Assembly: GCF_001517975.1 (NCBI RefSeq)
Contig: NZ_KQ950181.1
Span: forward strand, 372,060 to 436,059
Source: Thermobifida cellulosilytica TB100
GTDB lineage: Bacteria > Actinomycetota > Actinomycetes > Streptosporangiales > Streptosporangiaceae
Direction of reading: 5' to 3'
Length of the DNA stretch: 64,000 bases
Under the pieces are notes generated by a model that searched no databases, was not told where the DNA came from, and saw only the letters and a program-made list of their open reading frames with translations. The translations under genes and the position numbers were made by a program. Below are positions 4,242-21,553 of this stretch, in pieces. Every line of letters begins with the position of its first letter. Positions within the stretch are counted from its first letter, which is position 1.

Positions 4242-4271
4242 GGGCGCAGCCAGCTTCGCCTGGCTGCGCCC
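4242..4271 (+). terminator. Hairpin after the 36-aa ORF
   Basis: GGGCGCAGCCAG (4242-4253) and CTGGCTGCGCCC (4260-4271) form a perfect 12-bp stem with a 6-base loop, nine bases after the stop codon. There is no T-run, so termination is likely but not certain. Its right arm overwrites the first bases of the degenerate repeat at 4266. Confidence 0.6.
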
Positions 4272-4354
4272 ATCCCCACATGCGTGGGGCTCACGACACA
4301 GGCTCGCCTACCTGTTCCTGTCTACCGGTACATCCCCACGTGCGTGGGGCTCTC
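4266..4354 (-). CRISPR. Degenerate two-repeat CRISPR unit, opposite orientation
   Basis: Two repeat-like segments, 4266-4294 and 4326-4354, flank a 31-base spacer (4295-4325). Both match the reverse complement of the array repeat around its palindrome (CCCCACGTGCGTGGGG; the first has an A for G). The first is degenerate over its initial six bases, the second differs at one base near one end and two near the other. Read as a CRISPR unit it is transcribed leftwards, against the cas genes. It could be a relic of an older array or a CreA-like antitoxin RNA unit. Confidence 0.72.
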
Positions 4355-10867: not shown

Positions 10868-11262
10868 GTGAGCCCCACGCACGTGGGGATGAACCGCCCC
10901 ACCTGACCCACAAAACCGAGTAGAACAGGTGAGCCCCACGCACGTGGGGATGAACCGCGCGGGTCGCGCGCCCGCCAGGCGATTCCGGAGTGAGCCCCAC
11001 GCACGTGGGGATGAACCGCCACTGCCTGGTCGTCGCGGTCCACCGCCTCGGTGAGCCCCACGCACGTGGGGATGAACCGGCACTCGCCGCCGCGCTCGGC
11101 GTTCCGCAGTCGTGAGCCCCACGCACGTGGGGATGAACCGGAGCCCTCCGTGACGAACCCCGCCCCGTACTGGTGAGCCCCACGCACGTGGGGATGAACC
11201 GAAGGTTCCCCCCCTGAACTGGGGGAAGCAGCCGTGAGCCCCACGCACGTGGGGATGAACCG
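10868..11262 (+). CRISPR. CRISPR array 1, seven perfect repeats
   Basis: Seven identical 29-bp repeats (first half GTGAGCCCCACGC, second half ACGTGGGGATGAACCG) start at 10868, 10929, 10990, 11051, 11112, 11173 and 11234, with six 32-bp spacers: an exact 61-bp period. Even the last repeat is perfect, which suggests a young array or recent loss of its distal end. Orientation (leader left, repeats ending in ATGAACCG) agrees with cas1-cas2 immediately upstream. Spacer 6 contains a 7-bp inverted repeat (TTCCCCC and GGGGGAA). No spacer matches anything else I noticed in the window. Confidence 0.99.
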
Positions 11263-11343
11263 ATTCAGACACGGCAGACGAATTCATGCCGCACACAAAA
11301 AAGACACCTGGCCTGCGATAAGCACAAAATGCCACGTCTCTCG

Positions 11344-11371
11344 GGGGCGGCCGTAGGATTTTGGCCGCCCC
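11344..11371. terminator. Hairpin between array 1 and the XRE pseudogene
   Basis: GGGGCGGCC (11344-11352) and GGCCGCCCC (11363-11371) form a perfect 9-bp stem with the loop GTAGGATTTT. It may end the array transcript or act as an operator for the gene starting at 11400. Confidence 0.45.
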
Positions 11372-11399
11372 ACACCCCTGGCATAGAGGAGAGTGACAG

Positions 11400-12175
11400 G
11401 TGGCCGTCAGTCCCGCTCTGCGCCGCCGCCGAATAGCCCGGACTCTCCTGCACCTCCGTGAATCCCGGGGACTCACCGCCCGCCAGGCCGCCGCTGAGGC
11501 GAAGAGACGCGCACCCGCCCTGTCCTGGTCGGAGTCGAAGGTCACCCGGCTGGAGACCTGCCGGGTTCGGCGTCCCCGCGCCGTGGACGTGGCCGCCCTC
11601 CTCGACGTGTACGACGTCACCGACCCCGCCACGCGCGCCGCCTACCTGCGTTACGCCCGCGAAGCCGCGCAGACCGGGTGGTGGGACGGCTACCGTGACG
11701 TGCTCGGCGATGCGGCTCTTCACGCTGATCTGGAGACCGGGGCGTCCCGTATCCGCGTGTTCGGGTTGGCTGCCCTCCCCGAGGTGGTGCAGACCGACGG
11801 TTATGCGCGGCTGCTGGTGGACGCCACTCTCGACGTTGATGAGGAAACGGCGGAGCGTCACGTCGAGGCGAGGATGCTGCGCAAACAGATCCTGGCCCGT
11901 CCGGATGCGCCCCGCCTCACCGTGGTCATCGACGAGTCGGCGCTGCGTAAGATCCCCGAACCGGTCCGCGACGAGCAGCTCCGCTACCTCGTGCAGGTGC
12001 AGCGTCCCGGGGTGCGTGTGCACGTCCTGCCGGACCGGGTCGGCCTGCACCCCGCGGTGTCTTGGTCGAGGACCCCGACGAGGTCGAGCACTACAGCCGT
12101 CTCCACGACGCCCTGCAGGGGCGCGCGCTGCCCCTGGGGGAAACGCGCGCCCTGCTGCTCAGCCAGACCCGCTAG
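11400..12175 (+). pseudogene. XRE/DUF5753 regulator with internal deletion and frameshift
   Basis: GTG 11400 with GAGGAG upstream opens an XRE-family helix-turn-helix gene: RRRIARTLLHLRESRGL, then SWSESKVTRLETCRVR, and a DUF5753 domain with LPEVVQTDGYARLLV and RVHVLPDRVGLHPAV. After HPAV (about 12057) the frame is lost. The expected end of the family (LVEDPDEVEHYSRLHDAL, then LGETRALLLSQTR and TAG 12173-12175) continues in another frame, and the usual 15-25 residues between these parts are missing. The reading frame that runs on to 12740 is antisense to the next gene. Best explained as a deletion with frameshift; no DUF397 gene follows. Confidence 0.75.
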
Positions 12176-12707
12176 TCCAGCCTGGGGGCCACGCGAACCA
12201 CGGCTGTTTCGGGGCGCTGCGGTCCGCCCACCGTTCCCGGCGGTCGCGGCGCTCCAGCAGGACCGCGCACTCGGAGAACGCCTCCGACAGGCGCCGCAGC
12301 AGGTCAATGCTGGTGGGACCGTGCTCGGACGGGCGCAGCACCAGACTGCGCATCCCGAAATGGAGCACGATGATGTCGGGGTTGGGCACGTGGATGTGGA
12401 CCTCCCCCGGCCAGCTGAGCGCTTCCACCACGGACTCGTCGAGATCGACGGTGTCGTCGTAGATGTAGGGCCACCCTCCCCTCGGTGCACTGTGGTCTGG
12501 CGGTTCCGGGTTGTCCCGGTCCCAACCGCGCAGCCTGATGAACTCCTCCAGACGAGACGTCCGGTAGACGAATCTTCCGTCGGGTCGCAGTTCGTGGGGG
12601 ATGTAGGGCCGCCACTTCTGGAGCTGGTGAACGGTAATCCCCAGCATCCCCGCGGCTTTGCGGGCGCTGATGACGTCGTCATCGGTGGTCGTCTGCTCCG
12701 TCTCCAT
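12159..12707 (-). CDS. MerR/excisionase-type DNA-binding protein
   Basis: A 182-residue protein. Residues 12-60 look like a MerR/AlpA-type winged helix: ISARKAAGMLGITVHQLQKW, then a wing ending in RFVYRTSRLEEFIRLRG. The remainder (hydrophobic strands VHIHVPNPDIIVLHFG and SIDLLRRLSEAF) is unassigned. Such proteins occur as excisionase-like or plasmid regulators, fitting the mobile-element setting, but no integrase is nearby. Its 3' end overlaps the native end of the XRE pseudogene by 17 bp (convergent). Confidence 0.6.
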   Translation of the reverse strand: METEQTTTDDDVISARKAAGMLGITVHQLQKWRPYIPHELRPDGRFVYRTSRLEEFIRLRGWDRDNPEPPDHSAPRGGWPYIYDDTVDLDESVVEALSWPGEVHIHVPNPDIIVLHFGMRSLVLRPSEHGPTSIDLLRRLSEAFSECAVLLERRDRRERWADRSAPKQPWFAWPPGWTSGSG

Positions 12708-12803
12708 GAGGGGGAGCGTAACCCGCGCGACCAGAGTTAACCGCAGTTAACTGCACACGTATGCGCTTAGGGGCGCTGGTCTGAGGTTATCTAGGGTCGC
12801 GCC

Positions 12804-13085
12804 ATGGAATGGACTGTCCCGAGTGACCGTTACGGCCCCGACACCGACATCGACGCGGAGGCCGCAGACCCGGTGTGGGTGCAGCTCGCGTCGATCCTCG
12901 CGGCGCGGATCGTGGCTGGCCGCTACCAGCGGGGCCGGGTGATTCCGTCGGAGAACCAGGTGATCGGGGAGTTCGGGGTGGCCCGCTCCACGGTCCGTAA
13001 GGCCGTGAAGCTCCTCGTGGAGGAGGGCCTGGTGCGCACGGTGCACGGTCGCGGCTCCTACGTCAGAGAGGACCTGGACGTGTGA
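12804..13085 (+). CDS. GntR-family winged-helix regulator without effector domain
   Basis: A 93-residue protein consisting almost only of a GntR helix-turn-helix: WVQLASILAARIVAGRY, IPSENQVIGEFGVARSTVRK and LLVEEGLVRTVHGRGSYV. Short GntR proteins like this control transfer genes in Streptomyces-type plasmids and integrative elements (KorSA-like), which suits the traB-like cluster downstream. ATG 12804. Its 3' end overlaps the convergent gene at 13063 by 23 bp. Confidence 0.85.
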   Translation: MEWTVPSDRYGPDTDIDAEAADPVWVQLASILAARIVAGRYQRGRVIPSENQVIGEFGVARSTVRKAVKLLVEEGLVRTVHGRGSYVREDLDV

Positions 13086-13293
13086 ACCCGGGCGGCAGGC
13101 CGTGGTCGGGGACGTGGACCCACTGCCCGTTCACCAGTCGGTAGACGCCGGTGCGTCCGTCCGGGGTGGCGAACCGGATCACGGAGCACCCCGGGAAGCC
13201 GGCCTTCCGTACCAGCCGGTCCAGTTCGGCGCGGCCGAGTACGGCCCCGTCCAGCGGGCCGCCCCGCAGCACGATCTTGTCGCCCACGGTCAC
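13063..13293 (-). CDS. Small GGPLDG-type protein (76 aa), paralog of 1207-1410
   Basis: A 76-residue protein of unknown function. LRGGPLDGAVLGRAELDRLV (residues 8-27) and TGVYRLVNGQWVHVP (from residue 48) align with the protein at 1207-1410. The start is GTG 13293, which overlaps the TGA of the ATPase gene by 4 bp, so the two are translationally coupled. The fact that both ATPase operons end with this protein argues for a functional link with the ATPase. Confidence 0.72.
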   Translation of the reverse strand: MTVGDKIVLRGGPLDGAVLGRAELDRLVRKAGFPGCSVIRFATPDGRTGVYRLVNGQWVHVPDHGLPPGFTRPGPL

Positions 13294-13766
13294 TCCCTGC
13301 GCCGGGACAGTTCGAACCAGACGCTGGTGCGGCCGTCAGCGTGCCGTGCCGTCCCCCACTGGGTGGCGGTGGTGTGCACGAACCACAGCCCGAAGCCGCC
13401 CTCGCTGTCGGTGTCCGGCAGCCGCGGGACGGGGAACCGCAGCTCCCCGTCGGGTTGGCCGTCGTCGATGACGCGGACCTGTACCCGGTCGGACAGGGTC
13501 ACCAGGGTCACGGTGACCTCGCCCCCGGACAGGCCGGAGGCGGTGTGGCGGATCGCGTTGTTGAACAGTTCGCTGGCCAGCAGTTCGATGTTCTCGCGGA
13601 GGCCGGCCGGGAGGGCGGCGGTGAGCACCGCCAGGCGGCTGCGCATCTCGGTGGCCTGCTCGGGCCGGCCGGGGAGGGTTACCGAGCGGCCGTCCACGGT
13701 CGTGTCGAGCACCACGGGGGCACGGTCGGCCGGGTCGGTGGTGCGGCGGGGCAGGAGCACGGTCAC
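13290..13766 (-). CDS. ATP-binding anti-sigma-factor-like protein (HATPase_c), second copy
   Basis: A 158-residue GHKL ATPase of RsbW type. The N box is IELLASELFNNAIRHT, followed by VQVRVIDDGQPDGEL (G1 box, DxGxPD-like) and SEGGFGLWFVHTTATQWG (lid). GTG 13766 is chosen because it forms a GTGA overlap with the preceding 60-residue gene. It resembles the ATPase at 1775-2233 in length, start context and neighbours but not closely in sequence, so the two loci look like old paralogs or independent acquisitions. Confidence 0.82.
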   Translation of the reverse strand: MTVLLPRRTTDPADRAPVVLDTTVDGRSVTLPGRPEQATEMRSRLAVLTAALPAGLRENIELLASELFNNAIRHTASGLSGGEVTVTLVTLSDRVQVRVIDDGQPDGELRFPVPRLPDTDSEGGFGLWFVHTTATQWGTARHADGRTSVWFELSRRRE

Positions 13767-13945
13767 CGGGCCACCCCCGCGGGCAGTGCGGCCAGGTGGG
13801 CCGGGGCGGCCTGGGGCAGGCGCCGGTGGGTGATGCCCCAGCGCAGCAGGAAGGCCAGCTCGGCGTCGAGCCGCCGCTCGGGAGGCAGGTGCTGGATGGC
13901 CCGCCAGGCCACCCATTCGGTGCAGTTGCGCGGGCAGAGGGTCAC
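13763..13945 (-). CDS. Hypothetical small protein (60 aa) in ATPase operon
   Basis: A 60-residue protein from GTG 13945 with GGAGGAG eight bases upstream. It begins TLCPRNCTEWVAWRAIQHLP and contains LDAELAFLLRWGITHRRLPQA, suggesting a compact helical fold with a CxxxC pair near the N-terminus. Start and stop both form 4-bp GTGA overlaps with the flanking genes. Family unknown. A shorter frame with the same end motif (GVAR) precedes the other ATPase gene. Confidence 0.55.
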   Translation of the reverse strand: MTLCPRNCTEWVAWRAIQHLPPERRLDAELAFLLRWGITHRRLPQAAPAHLAALPAGVAR

Positions 13946-14058
13946 TGGGAGTTCTCCTCCCCCGCGTCCTGGGCGCCGTGGTCTGAGGGCGGTTCGGGGG
14001 GCTCGTCCGGCCAGGGGCCGTGCAGCAGGTCTCGTTCCTCTTGGCGATCTCGTCTCAT
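13942..14058 (-). CDS. 38-aa acidic leader protein of ATPase operon
   Basis: ATG 14058 with an excellent ribosome binding site (GGAGGTGG four bases upstream) opens a 38-codon frame: a charged start (MRRDRQEERDLLHG), a proline stretch and an acidic end (DAGEENSQ). Its TGA overlaps the GTG of the next gene. It is too short for routine annotation, but the initiation signal and the coupled architecture support it as the first gene of a four-gene operon (38, 60, 158 and 76 residues). Confidence 0.55.
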   Translation of the reverse strand: MRRDRQEERDLLHGPWPDEPPEPPSDHGAQDAGEENSQ

Positions 14059-14181
14059 GTGTCCACCTCCAGTAGGTGGACGCTACACACCGCTCATCAG
14101 GGGTGACAGTAACAGAGTGCACCCGTTCGAGGCAGGTGCGCTCCTGGTGTGTATGCGGCGTACCAACCCGCAGGTCAGAGG

Positions 14182-15405
14182 TTAGGCGGGGACGCCGAGG
14201 AAATCGGCGAGGTCCCGCTGCTCGGCCGAGGGCATGCGGGTGCGGGCGGCGAGGATGTCCTCGGCGACCTCGCGCGCCGCCTGCTGGTGGCGCAGCCACC
14301 CGGGCACGGCGGACCGCAGCTCGGCGAGAGTGGCGGTGGCGGCCTCGGCGTCGCCGAGCAGCACCTGGGACTTGGCCACGTCGATGCGGTGGCGGTGGAC
14401 AGCGAGCGAGTAGGTCAGCCCCACGTCTCGCGGCAGCTGTTCGGCGAGCTGGAGGGCCCGGTCCGGTCGCCCCGCGATCAGAGTGTTCTCGACCTCCTTC
14501 ATCGCCACGGTCAGCGGCCCGAACGGGCGGCGGCCCGTTACCTCGGCCTCGCGGCCCAGGCGGGCCGCGGCCGCCGCCGCTGCCCGTAGGTAGTCCTCGG
14601 CCTCCTCAGGCCGGTTGTTGCGGGCGGCTGCCGCGGATGCCCACAGCAGCAGGTGGCCCCACGCGCCGAGCTCGTCAGGGGTGGCCTTGGACAGCTTGGT
14701 GGGCTCCACCTTGTCCGCGGTGCGTTCACACAGCTTCTCGACCTCGTCGAAGCGCGCCTGGCGCAGCAGTGCCCAGCTCTGCACGGGCACCACGGCTGCG
14801 GCGAACACCGGGTCGTCCGCGGTCAGCGCGTCGGTGAGCGCGTCCCGTAACGCCATCAGCGCCAGGTCGTGCTCGCGCACCTGGATCAGGTACTGGCCCG
14901 CAGACACGAGGATGTCGGCGCGTACCCGGTGGGCGCGCACCTTCTCCTCCCCGTCGAGGGCCTGGACGTGCTGGTGGGCTGACTGCACCACGGCGGGCAG
15001 CAGCGACGCCAGCTCGTTGTAGGTGCCTCGGGCGTAGTGCCCGGCCAGGGCGTCAGCGGCACCGGCCAGGACGTCCAGGTTCGGTTCGGCGTCCTCCACG
15101 GCGGGGAAGAGCAGGCCGCCGTCCACGGAGACGGGCGGGTTGATGACGGCGCGGATCTGCGCCAGGGCCGTGTCGCGGTGAGGGTCTGCGACCGGCTCGG
15201 GGTCCTGGGGTGAGACGAACATCAGGGTGCGCACGCCCAAGGCGCGGGCGAGCGCGTGATAGGTCGCCATGCGTGCGGTGCCGCCCCGCTCGATCTTCGC
15301 GATGACTTCCCGGGAGAGGCCGGCTCGGGCGGCGAGTTCCTCTTGCGTCCAGCCGCGCCGCTGGCGCAGGGATCGAATCTTGTCGCTGATTTCCGTATCC
15401 TTCAC
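14182..15405 (-). CDS. XRE-family regulator with TPR-like C-terminal region
   Basis: A 407-residue protein. Residues 8-62 are an XRE helix-turn-helix (IRSLRQRRGWTQEELAARAG, SREVIAKIERGGTARM). The rest is alpha-helical and repeats TPR-like pairs, e.g. AGQYLIQVREHDLALMALRDAL, read here only in part, and NRPEEAEDYLRAAAAAAARL. Actinomycete proteins of this build are putative signal-responsive regulators, often near anti-sigma-like ATPases. ATG 15405. It is transcribed towards the ATPase operon on the same strand, with a 123 bp gap carrying that operon's likely promoter. Confidence 0.85.
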   Translation of the reverse strand: MKDTEISDKIRSLRQRRGWTQEELAARAGLSREVIAKIERGGTARMATYHALARALGVRTLMFVSPQDPEPVADPHRDTALAQIRAVINPPVSVDGGLLFPAVEDAEPNLDVLAGAADALAGHYARGTYNELASLLPAVVQSAHQHVQALDGEEKVRAHRVRADILVSAGQYLIQVREHDLALMALRDALTDALTADDPVFAAAVVPVQSWALLRQARFDEVEKLCERTADKVEPTKLSKATPDELGAWGHLLLWASAAAARNNRPEEAEDYLRAAAAAAARLGREAEVTGRRPFGPLTVAMKEVENTLIAGRPDRALQLAEQLPRDVGLTYSLAVHRHRIDVAKSQVLLGDAEAATATLAELRSAVPGWLRHQQAAREVAEDILAARTRMPSAEQRDLADFLGVPA

Positions 15406-15477
15406 TTAAGCCCCGCTCCTGTTCTGTATGGGTCCCACCGTCAGGATAGGGCGGGGCTGTACGTCTGTCAGGGGCTT

Positions 15478-15705
15478 TCAACCAGCCAGCTCCACCGTGA
15501 AAACACCCTCCCCCGCGTCCAGCAGATCGGTGTAGGTGCACACGACCTCGTCACCGTCCCGGACCGCATGGGACTGCACGACCTCCCACCCGCTACAGGT
15601 GCGGCGGATCACTGCGTGCGCCCCGGCACCCAGCAGTATCCACCGGTACCGAAGGGGCACGGACAGCAGCAGGCGAGCGGTTTTAGGCACGACCGACTCC
15701 GTCAA
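15478..15705 (-). CDS. Hypothetical protein (75 aa)
   Basis: A 75-residue frame from TTG 15705; GTG 15690 is an alternative. It reads as a small beta-rich protein: RLLLSVPLRYRWILLGAGAH, a WEVVQSHAVRDGDEVVCTYT segment and GVFTVELAG. Composition is protein-like and hydrophobic/charged alternation is good, but there is no clear ribosome binding site and I recognise no family. It sits between the XRE/TPR gene and the repeat cluster at the end of traB. Confidence 0.45.
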   Translation of the reverse strand: MTESVVPKTARLLLSVPLRYRWILLGAGAHAVIRRTCSGWEVVQSHAVRDGDEVVCTYTDLLDAGEGVFTVELAG

Positions 15706-15761
15706 CAGGGCTCAGGGGATGGGGTGATTGTCGCAACAGGCGGCGACGGTCGACAGGGACG

Positions 15762-15940
15762 GTGTCACACCTGTGGGCAACACCGTCCGAGACCGGCGGC
15801 CACTGCCTCTACGACGCGGGGAACCGGCTACACGTCACACCTCGTGACACGCATTGTCGCAGGTCACGGGCGTGACACGGTGTAACAGCGGGTGTGACGT
15901 CACGGCCGTGTCACACCGCATGTCACACCCGGTGTCACAA
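15762..15940. repeat. Cluster of TGTCACAC-type repeats at the 3' end of traB
   Basis: Eight copies of a GTCAC(A) core in both orientations: GTGTCACACC at 15762 and 15908, CGTCACACC at 15833, GTGACAC at 15844 and 15872, GTGTGAC at 15892, TGTCACACC at 15921 and GTGTCACAA at 15932. The last copy runs into the traB stop codon. Iterated short repeats beside an actinomycete tra gene are where the clt locus, bound by the TraB translocase, is found on Streptomyces plasmids. This is a candidate clt-like or iteron site. Confidence 0.6.
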
Positions 15941-18058
15941 GGGCGGGGACCAGTCCGCCACCTCGTCGGGCACCCCCCGGTGGCCTTCGCGGATCTCGGC
16001 TGCCGCAGCCTCGACGGCCTGACGCGAGTAGCCGCGGCCCGTGCCGCGTCCGGGCATGCGGAACGGGGTCGGCAGCGGGGCGATGCCGACGGCCTTGAAC
16101 AGGGCCGTGAGACGGTCCTTGTCGCCTCCGGTGAGCCGTTCGGCGAGCACCTGGCGGTGCACCTGGTCGGTGTCCTCCTCGTCGAACACGGCCAGCGCGG
16201 CGGTCAGCAGCAGCGGCAGCGTCCCCTCCGGTGCCAGGCCGGCGACGATTTCGGAGAACCGCTGGTCGACGTCGTCGATCTCGTGGCCGTTCTCGTCCAG
16301 CAGCGGCCTGCCCGACAGGCGACGCAGCCGGTTGCGGACCTCGATGGCCGCCTGCCTGCGCTCCTCGCTGGAGCGCCGCGGCCGCGTCGGCTCCGGCGGG
16401 GTGGCGGGGCGCGCCGCAGGCGAGGAGGGGGCTGCTGTGCCGGGCAGGGACGGCACGCCCAGCCACCCGTGGGCCAGAGCGCGCTGCCACCGCTCCTCGT
16501 AGACCCGGCGCACCTCCCCTTCCCCGAGGGTGATCTCGTCCATGGCGGGCCGCCACTCGTCGCAGGTCAACGCGTCCTGGTAGGCGTCGGCGTCCTGGCT
16601 GCGGGACGCCTTGTACAGCATCGGCCGCTGCCCGGCGGTGGCGACCGCGTGCCCCCACCCCGGCGCGGGCGCGGCCGTCACCCTCGTGCCCTGCCCGAAC
16701 AGGCGCTGCAGTTCGCTCTGCGCGTTCACGCGCACGCTCAGCCGGGTCTCGGACTGGGCGAGCAGGTCCGTGGGCAGGCCCTCCATGCCCTGGGCGACCG
16801 CGCGCAGCCACGAGGTGAGCATGCTGATCGACGCTGCCCCGCACCGGTCGTTCAACTCCACCAACCGTGTCTTCACCGACCTGGGCAGGGACTTGGACTC
16901 GTCGGTGAGCAGCAGGATGTGGGGGATGTCGTGGGACACGGCGAGTTTGTCGTCGCCGCCCTTCTGCCACATGTAGTCGGAGTAGCCGGCGCGGCGCCGC
17001 TCTACTGCGCCGATCAGCCAGGTCAGCATGAGCTCGGCCTCCTCGGCGGTGGTGGCGACCCAGTCGATCGCCGGACGCCGGGTGCGGCCCTCCAGCCAGG
17101 GCCGCAGGAACGGCTTGAACACCGCACCGCCGTTGGGGTCGATGCCCATGACCAGCACGTCGTTGCAGCGCAGCGCCTGGCGCGCCACCGTCTTGAGCAG
17201 GTTCGACTTGCCCTGGCGTTTCGCGCCGACCAGCACCGCCGAGGTCCACCGCAGCGGCAGGCTCACCAGCGACCCGTTGGAGTACAGGCCCACGGGAAGC
17301 GGGGCGTCGATCGTCGCGGGCAGCGTCTCGGGCTCGACCAGGGGAATGTCGCCGTCGAGGACGTTGAGGGTGGTGACGTCGACGAGGGCGCGCCCCAGGT
17401 CCACGCCCGGCCGCACCTCCAGGCCGCATCCGTGCGGCAGCCTCAGGTCAGCGGCGAGCCGGGTGGCGAACATCGCCAGGTTCTCCCACGACACCCCGCC
17501 GAGCGGCAACTCCACGTCCACGGTGTAGCCGGTCTGCCGCTCCCTGCCGGGCCGGTCCGGGTCCGGGTGGATCCACGGCTCGATCGCGACCACCCGCGCG
17601 CCCCTGATGTTCGCGACCCGCTCCAGGCGCGCCGTCCACTGCCGGGCCTCCGACCAACGCTGCTGCTCTGCGGTGGCCTGCCGGGCGTGTTCGCGGACGT
17701 GGTGCTGGCGCAGGGCCACGGCGAGGGCGAGCAGCCCGGCCGCCAACGCCGCCCCGCCCCCCAGCAGCAGGGTGTTGACGTCCCACACCCCGTCGTGGAG
17801 GGCGTACGTCGTCCATGCTCCCGCCCCGGCCCAGCAGAACAGCCGGTAGGCGCGCACCGCCCGGCTGGCGTTCGTGGCGCGGGCGTGGACGTAGGACGCG
17901 GCCGCGCCGACCCCGGCCAGGCCGGCCGCCCACCACGGGGAGATACCCCAGGTGAACGCGTCGTTGGCGGCCGTGAACGCGCCGAGGCCCAGCGCGGTGT
18001 TGATGCTGCCGGACACGGGGCCGTGCCGCGGCGACCAGTCGATGCGCCTCGCAGCCAT
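15935..18058 (-). CDS. TraB-like FtsK/SpoIIIE DNA translocase
   Basis: A 707-residue protein from ATG 18058; two hydrophobic segments lie near residues 20-45 and 75-110 and anchor it in the membrane. The motor domain has a Walker A, VGAKRQGKSNLLK (about residues 278-290), a MGIDPNGG strand and a Walker B, HILLLTDES (about 377). This build matches the single-protein conjugative translocases of Streptomyces plasmids and integrative elements, which move double-stranded DNA between mycelial cells. The C-terminus has a winged-helix-like stretch (AVFDEEDTDQVHRQVLAERL) that may read DNA repeats. It lies one base after the gene upstream. Confidence 0.82.
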   Translation of the reverse strand: MAARRIDWSPRHGPVSGSINTALGLGAFTAANDAFTWGISPWWAAGLAGVGAAASYVHARATNASRAVRAYRLFCWAGAGAWTTYALHDGVWDVNTLLLGGGAALAAGLLALAVALRQHHVREHARQATAEQQRWSEARQWTARLERVANIRGARVVAIEPWIHPDPDRPGRERQTGYTVDVELPLGGVSWENLAMFATRLAADLRLPHGCGLEVRPGVDLGRALVDVTTLNVLDGDIPLVEPETLPATIDAPLPVGLYSNGSLVSLPLRWTSAVLVGAKRQGKSNLLKTVARQALRCNDVLVMGIDPNGGAVFKPFLRPWLEGRTRRPAIDWVATTAEEAELMLTWLIGAVERRRAGYSDYMWQKGGDDKLAVSHDIPHILLLTDESKSLPRSVKTRLVELNDRCGAASISMLTSWLRAVAQGMEGLPTDLLAQSETRLSVRVNAQSELQRLFGQGTRVTAAPAPGWGHAVATAGQRPMLYKASRSQDADAYQDALTCDEWRPAMDEITLGEGEVRRVYEERWQRALAHGWLGVPSLPGTAAPSSPAARPATPPEPTRPRRSSEERRQAAIEVRNRLRRLSGRPLLDENGHEIDDVDQRFSEIVAGLAPEGTLPLLLTAALAVFDEEDTDQVHRQVLAERLTGGDKDRLTALFKAVGIAPLPTPFRMPGRGTGRGYSRQAVEAAAAEIREGHRGVPDEVADWSPPL

Positions 18059-18059
18059 C

Positions 18060-19592
18060 TCAGATCTCCTCGTTGAGGAGCTTGTCCCACTCCTCCTCGG
18101 CAACCCGAGGGCTGCGGAGGCGTTCCAGGTCGATCTCGTGCGCCTTCTCGAACACGGGCTCCAGGTCGTCGCCGATCTGCACGGCATCGTTCAGGCCGTT
18201 GCCCATCTCCCGGAGGGCCTCGACCACAGCGGGGTTGGCCGGCCGCTCCTCCTCCAGGGTCGCGGCCATCTTGTTCACGCCGTCGCGCATCTGCTCGACC
18301 ACGTGGGTCAGCGCGGACATCAGCTGTCCGAGCTGCGACATCGGCACGGCCTGGGCGTAGGCGGCGATCTTGGCGGCCAGCTCCTCGCCTTCGCTGCGCA
18401 GGTCTTCGATCTCCACGGACATGTCGTGTGCTCCCTCGTCGTGCGGTGTGTGATCAGAGGTGGGGTGGCTGGGGCGTTCGGCCCGGTCGCCGACCCTCCT
18501 GGGCGGCGGCTCCTTGGCGAAGACCTCGACGATCGGCTCCCACATGCCGATCAGGAACGCCACGATCCACTGCTCTCGCGGGGAGAGCTGGCCGTACTTG
18601 GCCCTCCAGAACGGGTCGACCAGCCGTTCCGCCCAGCCGCGGGGCGTGGTCAGGACGATCCAGGCGCGACGCAGGCGGCGCTTCACCGCCCGGGGGGTGG
18701 AGGTGCGGGCGATCCACCAGGTGACACGGCTGAGCGCGCACACCCCCTGCCAGGCCACGCTGCCCGTGGCGAGCAGGACCCGGCCGCCCCGGACCGATCC
18801 GATTCGGCGCCTCATCTTCGCCAGCTGCCCGGTGATGACCGGTTCGGCTCGGGCAGCCAAGCCGACCCGGGGCCCCCTGGCCCGGTTCGATCCGCTTCGA
18901 GCCGCTCCACCGCCGGCCCGGCTCGGTCCGGTCCGAACCGAACCGCGGTTCGACCAGCCCTCCGAACCGGACCACGCCGATCCGGGCCAGCTCGGTCCGA
19001 TCCGACCCGAACCGCGCGCCGCCCCGGTCCGAACCGAACCGGTCCGGTTCGATCCGAGCCGAGCCGGGGCCTGGCTCGGCTTCACACTGCTGCCGGTTCG
19101 AGCCGATCCAGTCCGGGCCGGTCCGCCGCCCCGAACCGCTGTCCGCCCCCCGAGCGGTAGCCGACCTCCGAGCGGGGGCCGACCCTTCCGGCTCGGCGAC
19201 GCCGCCCGGGAGCCTCCCCCCGACGAGGAGGCACTGCTCCGTCTCGCCGGTCGGCTGGCCCCGCTGCGGGCCGCTCCCAGCCACCTGCGGCGTGTCCTGC
19301 GGCGGCCGCGACGCGCCCCGTAGAGCGCTGCTCCGGTGCCCACCGCAGCCACGACCGCGGCAGCCCCCAGGGGCCCCGCGGCGGTCATCGCCCCGGACAC
19401 GGCCATGCCGAGGGCGCCTGCGGCTCCCAGGGCAGCGGGGACCGGGCGGAACGGCTGCGGTTCGGGAGCCGGTTCGGGGCGAGCCGATCTGGTTCGGTCT
19501 GCCGATTCGGGCCGGTCCGGTCCGGTTCGATCCACCGGTTCGCCCGAGCCCGGTTCGATTCGGTTCGATCCGGTGTCAGTGCGGGTCTGCAT
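18060..19592 (-). CDS. Low-complexity membrane protein of the transfer module
   Basis: A 510-residue protein of unknown function. It has an Arg/Pro/Asp-rich N-terminus, a hydrophobic stretch at about 50-90 (ALGMAVSGAMTAAGPLG onward), a long repeat region of NRTGSVRTG-type units (about 150-250), a basic region with VLLATGSVAWQGVCALS, and an acidic helical C-terminal domain. The last 120 residues (MSVEIEDLRSEGEELAAKI onward) follow a GAGGGAG and ATG 18424 in the same frame, so they may also be made as a separate protein. It ends one base before traB. Position suggests a spread or mating function, but this is inference. Confidence 0.62.
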   Translation of the reverse strand: MQTRTDTGSNRIEPGSGEPVDRTGPDRPESADRTRSARPEPAPEPQPFRPVPAALGAAGALGMAVSGAMTAAGPLGAAAVVAAVGTGAALYGARRGRRRTRRRWLGAARSGASRPARRSSASSSGGGSRAASPSRKGRPPLGGRLPLGGRTAVRGGGPARTGSARTGSSVKPSQAPARLGSNRTGSVRTGAARGSGRIGPSWPGSAWSGSEGWSNRGSVRTGPSRAGGGAARSGSNRARGPRVGLAARAEPVITGQLAKMRRRIGSVRGGRVLLATGSVAWQGVCALSRVTWWIARTSTPRAVKRRLRRAWIVLTTPRGWAERLVDPFWRAKYGQLSPREQWIVAFLIGMWEPIVEVFAKEPPPRRVGDRAERPSHPTSDHTPHDEGAHDMSVEIEDLRSEGEELAAKIAAYAQAVPMSQLGQLMSALTHVVEQMRDGVNKMAATLEEERPANPAVVEALREMGNGLNDAVQIGDDLEPVFEKAHEIDLERLRSPRVAEEEWDKLLNEEI

Positions 19593-20095
19593 GTCTCATT
19601 CCCAGGTTGGGGTGGGTCGCTGACGTCTCCCCACCGCCCCGGCCACCGGGGCGGCAGAGGCACCTCAGCGCGCTGTTTCCTGCTGTGCCTGCTTGTCGGG
19701 GTCGAACAGGCCCACCTCGTTGGCCCAGTCGCGGAGCTGGCGGCCCCGCTTCTTCCCGATCCGCAGTTCCCGGCAGAACCAGTCGACGACGTTCGCGGTG
19801 ATCCGCCCGGACTCGACTGCGGCTCGCAGCTCCTCCCGGAGCTGTTCCATCGAGCGGTGGGTGCTGATCGGTGTCGGGGCGGGCAGCGGATTCGACTCGA
19901 CCCGGTTCGGCTCGGTCCGATCCGGCTCGGGCTGGTCCGGTTCGGTCCGGTCCGCCGGTTCGGGCTGCTCCTCCGACTCGGTGTGCTCTGCCTCGCCCCG
20001 GTCCGATCCGGTCCGGTCCGGCTCGGCCCGGTCCACCAGTTCGACCCGATCCGGTCCAACCCGGTCCGGTTCGACGTCCTGGACCGGACCGGACC
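18885..20095. repeat. Dispersed GAACCGGACCGG-type repeats inside two genes
   Basis: Variants of a 10-12 bp motif (minus strand GAACCGGACCGG, GGATCGAACCGG, GGTTCGGACC) are iterated in three blocks, about 18885-19100, 19490-19580 and 19890-20095. The first two lie in the 510-residue gene and the third in the DUF2637 gene. The same bases are read as NRTG in one gene and EPDR in the other, so the repetition acts at DNA level rather than protein level. Confidence 0.7.
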
Positions 20096-20888
20096 CCAAC
20101 TCCAGCGGCTGCAACCGCTCCAGGGTGATCAGCCCAGCCATCGCCCGCCGCGCCTCCGCCGTCGACGAGTAGTCCATCCCCGCGAACCGGGGGGCCAGAG
20201 TCATCACCTGCAGAGTGCGCAGCACCTCCGCCACCGTCTCCGGGGAGTCGGCGAGCCCGGCCCGGAAGATCGCCTCCTGGGCGCGGGACTCCCTCCTCCT
20301 CTCCACCAGGTCGACCAGCCACCCGAACCCCCACGGGCGGTGCGCCAGCTGGGCCCGACGCAGCCGCCACTCCGCGCGGGTCACCTCCCGCAGCAGACGC
20401 TCCCGCCGCGCCCGCTCGGCCTGTTCCCGCACGATCCGCGTGGCCTCCTCCGCCGACAGCGTCTCGTCACGCGCCAGCTCCAGCGCCACCCGCACCCGCT
20501 CAACCGGGTGCAGCCACCGCACCAAGGCGAGCCTGCGGTTCGTCCACGTGCCCGCCGCCTCCCGAAGCTCCCGCTCACGGTTGGCCCGCTTGGCGGACAT
20601 CCGCAGCTCATAGGAGCAGCCGGCCAGCAGAGTGATCGAGGCGTACACCACCCGTCCCGCCCACGTGTCGGAATGGGTGGCGTTCAGCGCCGCGGCCAGG
20701 CCGATCACCGCCCAGTACCCCGCGCGCAGCCCCATAGCGGGGATGCCCTGCTCGGCACGCTGGTTGATCAGCGTCATGATCACCAGCGCGAACCCCTCGA
20801 ACACCGCGAACAGCAGCCAGTTCGCAGGAACCGGCACGTCCGCGTGGACACGGGCCACCGTGGCCATGCCGTAGGCGGAGAAGCTCAT
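19665..20888 (-). CDS. DUF2637/SpdB-like membrane protein, 5' end probably truncated by array 2
   Basis: From ATG 20888 the frame gives 407 residues. The N-terminal half has membrane segments (ANWLLFAVFEGFALVIMTL, GYWAVIGLAAALNATHS, VVYASITLLAGCSYELRM) typical of DUF2637 proteins of actinomycete plasmids and integrative elements, then a coiled, arginine-rich cytoplasmic part and a Glu/Pro/Asp/Arg repeat tail with a final helix-turn-helix-like VDWFCRELRIGKKRGRQL. The first membrane segment (IAIQFVIAMSFSAYGMATV) runs directly into the CRISPR array, and the frame stays open through its first repeat. The original start thus seems lost. Confidence 0.68.
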   Translation of the reverse strand: MSFSAYGMATVARVHADVPVPANWLLFAVFEGFALVIMTLINQRAEQGIPAMGLRAGYWAVIGLAAALNATHSDTWAGRVVYASITLLAGCSYELRMSAKRANRERELREAAGTWTNRRLALVRWLHPVERVRVALELARDETLSAEEATRIVREQAERARRERLLREVTRAEWRLRRAQLAHRPWGFGWLVDLVERRRESRAQEAIFRAGLADSPETVAEVLRTLQVMTLAPRFAGMDYSSTAEARRAMAGLITLERLQPLELGSGPVQDVEPDRVGPDRVELVDRAEPDRTGSDRGEAEHTESEEQPEPADRTEPDQPEPDRTEPNRVESNPLPAPTPISTHRSMEQLREELRAAVESGRITANVVDWFCRELRIGKKRGRQLRDWANEVGLFDPDKQAQQETAR

Positions 20889-20915
20889 CGCGATCACGAA
20901 CTGGATGGCGATGAG

Positions 20916-21553
20916 GTGAGCCCCACGCACGTGGGGATGAACCTCGGAGGGCGAGGAGGAGGTCGACGCGACGGATGTGAGCCCCACGCACGTGGGGATG
21001 AACCGTCAGCGTTCTTCTCGCTGACCTCGCTCACGGCGTGAGCCCCACGCACGTGGGGATGAACCGGCCGGGCACGGTCCGCTGAGCTGGACGGAGTAGT
21101 GAGCCCCACGCACGTGGGGATGAACCGCGGACCTGGAACGCGACGTTCCGCCGGTGTGGGTGAGCCCCACGCACGTGGGGATGAACCGGAGACAACCATG
21201 ACCGTCACGAACCCCCACCTGTGAGCCCCACGCACGTGGGGATGAACCGGGGGTGGCTGCCCCGGCACTCCTCGCACTCCAGTGAGTCCCACGCACGTGG
21301 GGATGAACCGACACAGGACCTGGAGGAACCTACTCTCGCCTTGTGAGCCCCACGCACGTGGGGATGGTCCGACCTCGCCTCAGCCCTGGCCGCGGAGGCC
21401 AGGGTGCTCCCCATGCACGTGGGGATGGTCCGGAGATGTACCTGAGCCTCGAGCGGCCCGGGTGGTGCTCCCCACGCACGTGGGGATGGTCCGGAGGGCC
21501 GCCGGTGACCCAGCACGACGAAAACGTGCTCCCCACGCACGTGGGGTGAACTG
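20916..21553 (+). CRISPR. CRISPR array 2, eleven repeats of two variants
   Basis: Repeats start every 61 bp at 20916, 20977, 21038, 21099, 21160, 21221, 21282, 21343, 21404, 21465 and 21526; the ten spacers are all 32 bp. Repeats 1-7 match array 1 except for single changes (last base of repeat 1, one base of repeat 7). Repeat 8 has the normal first half but ends GATGGTCCG. Repeats 9-10 begin GTGCTCCCC and end GATGGTCCG. Repeat 11 is damaged (one base deleted, end altered). Orientation equals array 1, but no leader is visible: the truncated DUF2637 gene abuts the first repeat. Confidence 0.98.

Follow-up and report, generated by a model that had tools for sequence, protein, structure and literature searches.

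A repeat array at the end of a divergent traB gene of Thermobifida is very probably a present or former clt locus

TraB recognises short clt repeats, according to the available text of three papers (PMC3583192, PMC4170104, PMC12857230). The clt of pWTY27, as described in the accessible part of PMC3583192, takes in the final 16 bp of tra together with the 159 bp beyond, and includes four TGACACC repeats footprinted by the purified translocase. The same text reports that the clt of pJV1 is made of nine CCGCACA[C/G][C/G] repeats, that the clt of pIJ101 lies near korB, and that the replication iteron of pWTY27, consisting of GTGGGAAC repeats, is separate from the clt. The clt repeats of pSVH1 (Vogelmann 2011) have been likened to those dealt with here from the descriptions found in the available portions of the three papers above, not by sequence. 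In the literature examined, part of it as partial text, TraB recognition sites have so far been described for few Streptomyces plasmids.

A comparable array closes the traB-type gene residing in the window, i.e. the whole 64-kb stretch of Thermobifida DNA analysed. The relevant features are listed below.

14182..15405, minus strand: XRE regulator gene
15478..15705, minus strand: small ORF (75 aa) adjoining the array, similar to a small gene of phiM2
15762..15940, no strand assigned: candidate clt locus, with ten GTCAC/GTGAC cores
15762..15770, no strand assigned: outlying, traB-distal copy GTGTCACAC
15834..15876, no strand assigned: middle part of the array, cores 15834 (plus), 15844 (minus), 15863 (plus) and 15872 (minus), set as inverted pairs
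15894..15939, no strand assigned: traB-proximal part of the array, cores 15894 (minus), 15899, 15910, 15922 and 15934 (plus)
15764, 15834, 15863, 15899, 15910, 15922, 15934, plus strand: the seven GTCAC cores of this strand
15844, 15872, 15894, minus strand: the three GTCAC cores of this strand
15935..18058, minus strand: gene of a traB-type FtsK/SpoIIIE translocase, 707 aa (phrog_31069, NCBIfam plasmid_TraB, P-loop)
15938..16276, minus strand: predicted C-terminal winged-helix domain of TraB, presumed repeat reader (AlphaFold, mean pLDDT 85.5)
16091..16120, minus strand: predicted recognition helix KDRLTALFKA (AlphaFold model)
18060..19592, minus strand: hypothetical gene upstream of traB, in spd-like position; a similar ORF is seen by eye upstream of the traB of L033
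19665..20915, minus strand: DUF2637 (spd-like) gene, its 5' part cut off at a CRISPR repeat

Counting both strands, ten GTCAC/GTGAC cores reside within 175 bp (15764-15938). The earlier note had reported eight GTCAC(A) copies in both orientations within 180 bp; the clustering holds, the number of cores is higher. Read on the traB coding strand, the consensus of the array is approximately 5'-GGTGTGACA-3'. On the coding strand, the four copies closest to the traB stop all read GTGAC; the distances between them are 12, 12 and 11 bp, cores 15910, 15922 and 15934 following each other at 12-bp steps. The last core (15934-15938) overlaps the stop codon (15935-15937), as had been noticed earlier. The array hence overlaps the end of the tra gene, a position expected of a clt locus.

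The array of 7-9-bp direct and inverted repeats exceeds chance. Ten cores in 180 bp were never obtained in 200 dinucleotide shuffles of the whole window (maximum 7), nor in 2000 shuffles of the 191-bp stretch itself (maximum 8). Six of the 11 copies of GTCACA, and all five copies of the heptamer GTCACAC, found in the 64-kb window are inside the array. The window has three copies of the exact octamer TGTCACAC, all of them in the array; this count alone is not significant, because at least three copies were reached in 25 of 100 whole-window shuffles, while the clustering is. The octamer was therefore rejected as the repeat unit, and a GTGAC core with variable flanks fits better. GTGTGAC-N5-GTGTGAC pairs with 0 or 1 mismatch were found in the whole genome, among the matches listed, at three places, all in the array; matches allowing up to three mismatches (157, vs 337 for the reversed control) are background. 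The k-mer cluster score of the array ranks 7 of 346 scan windows in the surrounding 18 kb; in a scan of the first 30 kb it was surpassed by repeats internal to the two genes upstream of traB and by CRISPR repeats.

Translated from the ATG at 18058, traB encodes 707 residues; a longer ORF of 750 aa starts at 18187. A P-loop, GAKRQGKS, can be read by eye in the translation. The protein matches phrog_31069 (FtsK/SpoIIIE-like) with an E value of 2.4e-126, and NCBIfam plasmid_TraB with an E value of 2.2e-10 at 39.7 bits, far below the 800-bit equivalog cut-off. On sequence grounds TraB is an FtsK/SpoIIIE-type ATPase with a P-loop, and a divergent relative of plasmid_TraB, not the named equivalog. 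No relative emerged when the single protein was used to query the genome contigs in a first scan, and no sequence relative was found in PDB at E 0.01. The last 113 residues fold as a winged helix in the AlphaFold prediction, obtained from a five-sequence alignment (mean pLDDT 85.5), and it is this domain that presumably reads the repeats. The winged helix is a common fold, and similarity of the model to PDB folds is weak: Foldseek gave nothing significant for the C-terminus (best E 0.26), and the best VIA-align match is Rex (Z 6.5, rmsd 3.0, 68 residues), followed by winged helices of MarR proteins. FtsK and TraB are absent from the PDB fold lists displayed for the C-terminus, an uninformative absence. 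The sequence LTGGD, preceding the predicted recognition helix, is common to the window TraB, to its relative in L033 and to that of phage P1312, all three associated with a GTGAC core, and these are three cases only. In FtsK the winged helix of a hexameric DNA pump, the gamma domain, reads short motifs known as KOPS, much as is proposed for the window TraB. KOPS are dispersed and polar on the chromosome, whereas the repeats described here are clustered and lie in both orientations.

Among published loci, the clt of pWTY27 is a close counterpart. The earlier note regarded the motif as unlike published repeats. This is not the case, since the footprinted clt repeat DC1 of pWTY27, TGACACC, is close to GTGTGACA, which is present in the window array along with two exact copies of TGACACC. 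Moreover, the clt of pWTY27 overlaps the tra stop, as does the window array. According to the available text, binding of the pWTY27 translocase, called TraA in the paper and TraB in RefSeq, was seen both by gel shift and by footprinting (PMC3583192). The two systems differ in that the C-terminus of the pWTY27 translocase is hardly similar to that of the window TraB (the local score is about 5% of the self score), and pWTY27 has four published repeats, five by our scan, vs ten cores. Also, pWTY27 is a Streptomyces theta plasmid, and the window module a CRISPR-embedded fragment in Thermobifida. Similarly, pJV1 and pSN22 carry nine and eight repeats, respectively, beyond the tra stop, but the repeats are CCGCACA and CGCACA, and the TraB C-terminus is another. 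The novelty lies in a divergent, non-Streptomyces TraB having an array of clt type; the kind of site is known, and the motif is near that of pWTY27.

Relatives of TraB were collected from plasmids, genome contigs, whole genomes and viral contigs, and the 250 bp around each stop were scanned, counting both strands, for over-represented 6-8-mers. Ends that reached a score of 4, and were equalled in no more than 1 of 200 shuffles, were taken as positive; the cut-off was chosen after the first results, and the set is partly hand-picked. From the first plasmid search 16 of 34 matches were taken and 15 used, H35/L055 being left out as devoid of an annotated tra gene. A second plasmid search, queried with another TraB encoded in the genome that hosts the window, contributed six of 69 matching records, three of which are the reference Streptomyces plasmids pWTY27, pJV1 and pSN22; pIJ101 was added separately. 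The whole-genome search contributed 14 of 21 places, after leaving out the window, pTH1 (twice, being already present as L004), a further piece of one gene, and three weak matches that presumably represent chromosomal FtsK. L040, which has no stop, was not counted, and L012, the same plasmid as L007, was omitted. Five of 11 phage records were taken and kept outside the 40 TraB-type ends.

The scan behaved as expected on the positive controls, returning five TGACACC copies from -14 to +50 of the tra stop in pWTY27, and nine CCGCACA copies from +5 to +122 in pJV1. Eight CGCACA copies were found after the tra stop of pSN22, and no array at the tra end of pIJ101, which matches the published clt site near korB. 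At the one cut-off used, repeat arrays were identified at 21 of 40 TraB-type gene ends; of the 131 remaining gene ends in these loci, 5 were positive. Among the five, one closes another gene annotated as FtsK/SpoIIIE (L008, 3259), and one corresponds to the GTGGGAA repeats of pWTY27, the published replication iteron of which is GTGGGAAC. In 12 of the 21 positives the array outscores every other cluster of the locus; in the remaining nine, the window among them, its rank is between 7 and 19. This counts against the clt reading, as do the 19 TraB-type ends in which no array is found by the cut-off. They include all the seven Streptomyces plasmids larger than 50 kb in the set (L048, L050, L051, L053, L054, L056 and L057), the Kitasatospora plasmid L049, and pTH1 of T. 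halotolerans (score 2.8, 16 of 200 shuffles).

The nearest relative is found in a viral contig (L033, a UViG), the TraB of which is 60% identical to that of the window, and hosts ten CGTGAC copies at the stop. Three Nocardiopsis elements (L003, L009 and L011, pSQ10 among them) carry nine copies of CGTTAC, and the array of L010 mixes GTAAC and GTGAC. Four of the five phages have no array; the exception is the Thermobifida phage P1312 (KT021004.1, L081), in which nine of the 20 GTCAC cores of 9.4 kb cluster at the end of a TraB-like FtsK gene, vs a maximum of 6 cores per 180 bp in shuffles. This gene end is a clt-like array in a phage genome. In pSQ10, L033 and P1312 related translocases have arrays in the same position as in the window, and L033 and P1312 share the GTGAC core, which in Nocardiopsis is replaced by GTAAC. 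No statement of clt function was found for these three arrays in the literature examined, part of which was accessible as partial text. A stretch resembling CTG-CCTGC-GT-ACG, noticed by eye, recurs near the middle of the arrays of L033, L081, L003 and L009-L011; its version in the window (15844-15867) has diverged to GTGACCTGCGACAATGCG. The stretch is possibly an additional conserved element of the array.

Other arrays are made of different repeats: TGACGCAA (six copies) in Frankia pFQ12, CCCGTGCC (seven) in Streptomonospora phiM2, ACCCCCC (seven) in Actinomadura, CCGAGTAC (seven) in L052, GGTGTCAC (six) in Thermobispora bispora, CTGACA in pRL1 (seven) and in an Amycolatopsis plasmid (six). 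The genome that hosts the window encodes a second, distant TraB on a 12.3-kb contig (C12, L045), which shows no exact terminal overlap; eight TCTGACA copies, mostly at 11-12-bp steps, follow its stop. After removal of the near-duplicates L009, L011 and L060, gaps of 11-13 bp number 37 in 18 non-redundant clusters, vs 10.4 +/- 3.0 expected by random placement in the same spans, a figure attained in none of 2000 simulations.

Motif similarity correlates with similarity between TraB C-termini (Mantel r 0.545, p 2e-4, 21 elements), and to the same extent with similarity in the rest of the protein (r 0.563, 21 elements); without L009, L011 and L060 (18 elements) the values are 0.348 and 0.36, respectively. 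As far as these comparisons tell, the repeat differs from one element to another and varies along with TraB. The co-variation of repeat and TraB C-terminus, indicated earlier as a check, is thus found in that motifs track TraB similarity, but is not peculiar to the C-terminus. Because the rest of TraB tracks the motif equally well, a residue-level code relating TraB to the repeat, which had been considered, was rejected. The four motifs most similar to that of the window are those of L033, L062, L045 and L058. TraB proteins of the latter three are hardly similar to the window TraB, suggesting that resemblance between motifs may have independent origins.

On the minus strand, the DUF2637 gene is followed by the hypothetical gene, traB, the array, the 75-aa ORF and the XRE regulator gene. 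The 75-aa ORF is 51.6% identical to a small gene located after the repeats in the Streptomonospora plasmid phiM2. The DUF2637 gene has nothing corresponding to residues 1-86 of the annotated homolog of phiM2: BLAST similarity starts at residue 26 of the ORF and residue 87 of the phiM2 protein, and the Pfam match at ORF residue 25, which is the first codon of the island described below. The two genes upstream of traB are also rich in repeats of their own. CGAACCGG/CGGACC sequences are dense at 18800-19110, 19440-19580 and 19910-20110, at a phase of about 5 bp, in several reading frames and on both strands; the heptamer CGAACCG is clustered upstream of traB in L033, too. These repeats were discarded as a rival recognition array, since, though dense, they lie within coding sequence and away from the traB end.

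A second genome of the genus (G001) carries a segment 87% identical to window positions 12296-16020, running from a small HTH gene to the repeats (L080, G001:C1:652000-671000). No copy of the CRISPR repeat of the window is found in the 19 kb around it. The traB gene is reduced to a relic of about 40 codons beside the array, weakly recognisable (E 0.003), and the cores persist nonetheless, which counts against the clt reading. In the alignment with window positions 15755-15945, 46 of 50 core bases are identical, vs 88 of 141 other bases (86 of 141 in the first alignment, Fisher p 2.7e-5), and the true core mask ranks first among 191 circular shifts. Conservation of the cores is supporting evidence only, because the alignment itself could favour repeats.

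Arrays of short repeats are not peculiar to clt loci, and other functions have to be considered. Iterons of a theta origin, bound by a Rep protein that opens the origin, have repeats of this size, and the same scan picks up the GTGGGAA replication repeats of pWTY27. This alternative, already raised in the earlier note, is disfavoured, and we regard it as very unlikely: no replication initiator was recognised in the part of the island ORFs that was scanned, which leaves room for a novel Rep or for one encoded by another ORF of the island, iteron and clt are at separate sites in pWTY27 according to the available text of PMC3583192, and pSQ10 and pTH1 feature further repeat clusters at a distance from tra, none of them identified as an origin. 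An operator array, to which the XRE protein encoded at 14182-15405 or a GntR/Kor-type repressor would bind, may be suspected from the many cores set in inverted pairs, from the start of the XRE gene some 360 bp downstream, and from the segment spanning the XRE gene and the array being retained as a unit in G001. Ten copies in 175 bp phased at about 12 bp would be unusual for an operator, however, and similar XRE genes map about 45 kb (T. bispora plasmid) and 13 kb (phiM2) from tra, while the arrays there are at the tra end; the chances of this explanation are slim, a trifle below those of iterons. Phased short repeats are also typical of some centromeres, and a parS-like partition site, or another stability site, could look alike. 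Yet in pSQ10 several kb separate the annotated ParA gene from the array, and in the window the island ORFs that were scanned include no recognisable par gene. Of the three functions, this is the least credible.

The array very probably is, or was, the clt of the TraB-type translocase encoded by the adjoining gene. This is the best-supported reading, also favoured by the earlier note, because position, repeat size, phasing at about 12 bp and sequence turnover all match known clt loci and the newly found arrays. Whether the site still works is another matter, and one compatible with the clt reading. Since the window module is truncated and enclosed in a CRISPR array, present clt activity is doubtful. 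The DUF2637 gene is truncated, no rep or int gene was recognised among the ORFs scanned, and traB survives only as a relic in G001; on the other side, the traB ORF of the window is open over 707 codons and encodes a P-loop, and the repeats are intact. On balance we lean towards a former clt that is unused today, a fossil module.

Binding, loading of a hexamer and transfer are deduced by analogy with relatives. In this scheme each GTGAC-core repeat would be read by the winged helix at the TraB C-terminus, and phasing at about 12 bp would load several TraB subunits in succession. A TraB hexamer would then form, and pump double-stranded DNA to the recipient. Two published clt loci were retrieved by the scan, which also points to candidate recognition repeats in 17 elements other than the window, pWTY27, pJV1 and pSN22, and in one Thermobifida phage. 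The elements belong to Thermobifida, Nocardiopsis, Streptomonospora, Actinomadura, Frankia, Thermobispora, Amycolatopsis and others, and the family-wide pattern makes TraB recognition codes directly testable. Among the matches listed in a literature search, which left subscription journals mostly uncovered, no title or abstract was found announcing clt predictions across actinobacterial TraB genes.

The location of the module is peculiar, as traB and the array lie in an island set exactly between two full-length CRISPR repeats.

11234..11262, plus strand: CRISPR repeat bordering the island on the left, the last of 7
11263..20915, no strand assigned: island with traB and the array, 9,653 bp
20881..20915, plus strand: AAG (20881-20883) and the 32 nt up to the right repeat, resembling a type I-E protospacer with its PAM
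20916..20944, plus strand: CRISPR repeat bordering the island on the right, the first of 11, with one mismatch at the last base

The seven repeats to the left and the 11 to the right have the same orientation, degenerate progressively towards the right end, and look like one type I-E array. AAG is the preferred PAM of T. fusca Cascade, as stated in the available text of PMC6546366, and makes up 0.25% of the trinucleotides on the plus strand of the island; the arrangement of AAG and 32 nt at the right edge was spotted after the fact, and the presumed spacer was not encountered elsewhere. It is an even bet that the element was captured in its host's own type I-E array by homologous recombination between a spacer and the matching protospacer in the DUF2637 gene. 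Capture would split the array and leave traB and the clt beside the cas operon, and the scenario would also call for another event on the left side of the island. If true, it would disarm the spacer, because this would no longer be flanked by two repeats. The immune array may in that case have become the integration site of the very element it targeted. Alternatively, an assembly error may account for the position of the island.

Recombination between spacers and protospacers has reportedly been seen between phages and CRISPR loci in staphylococci, though such a report is missing from the literature titles among the matches listed. Self-targeting spacers were considered and rejected: a comparison confined to the window gave no match at up to 8 mismatches between the island and any spacer of the split array, and matches of the spacers to the loci compared are 14-18 nt long. 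The sequences at the island edges (32 and 29 nt) have no exact match in the viral contigs. Were capture real, an address label for TraB would reside in the chromosome, and could in principle start a chromosome transfer carrying along the CRISPR-Cas locus, a much longer shot than capture itself. Two more imperfect copies of the CRISPR repeat are found on the opposite strand at 4266-4354, just before the cse1/casA gene.
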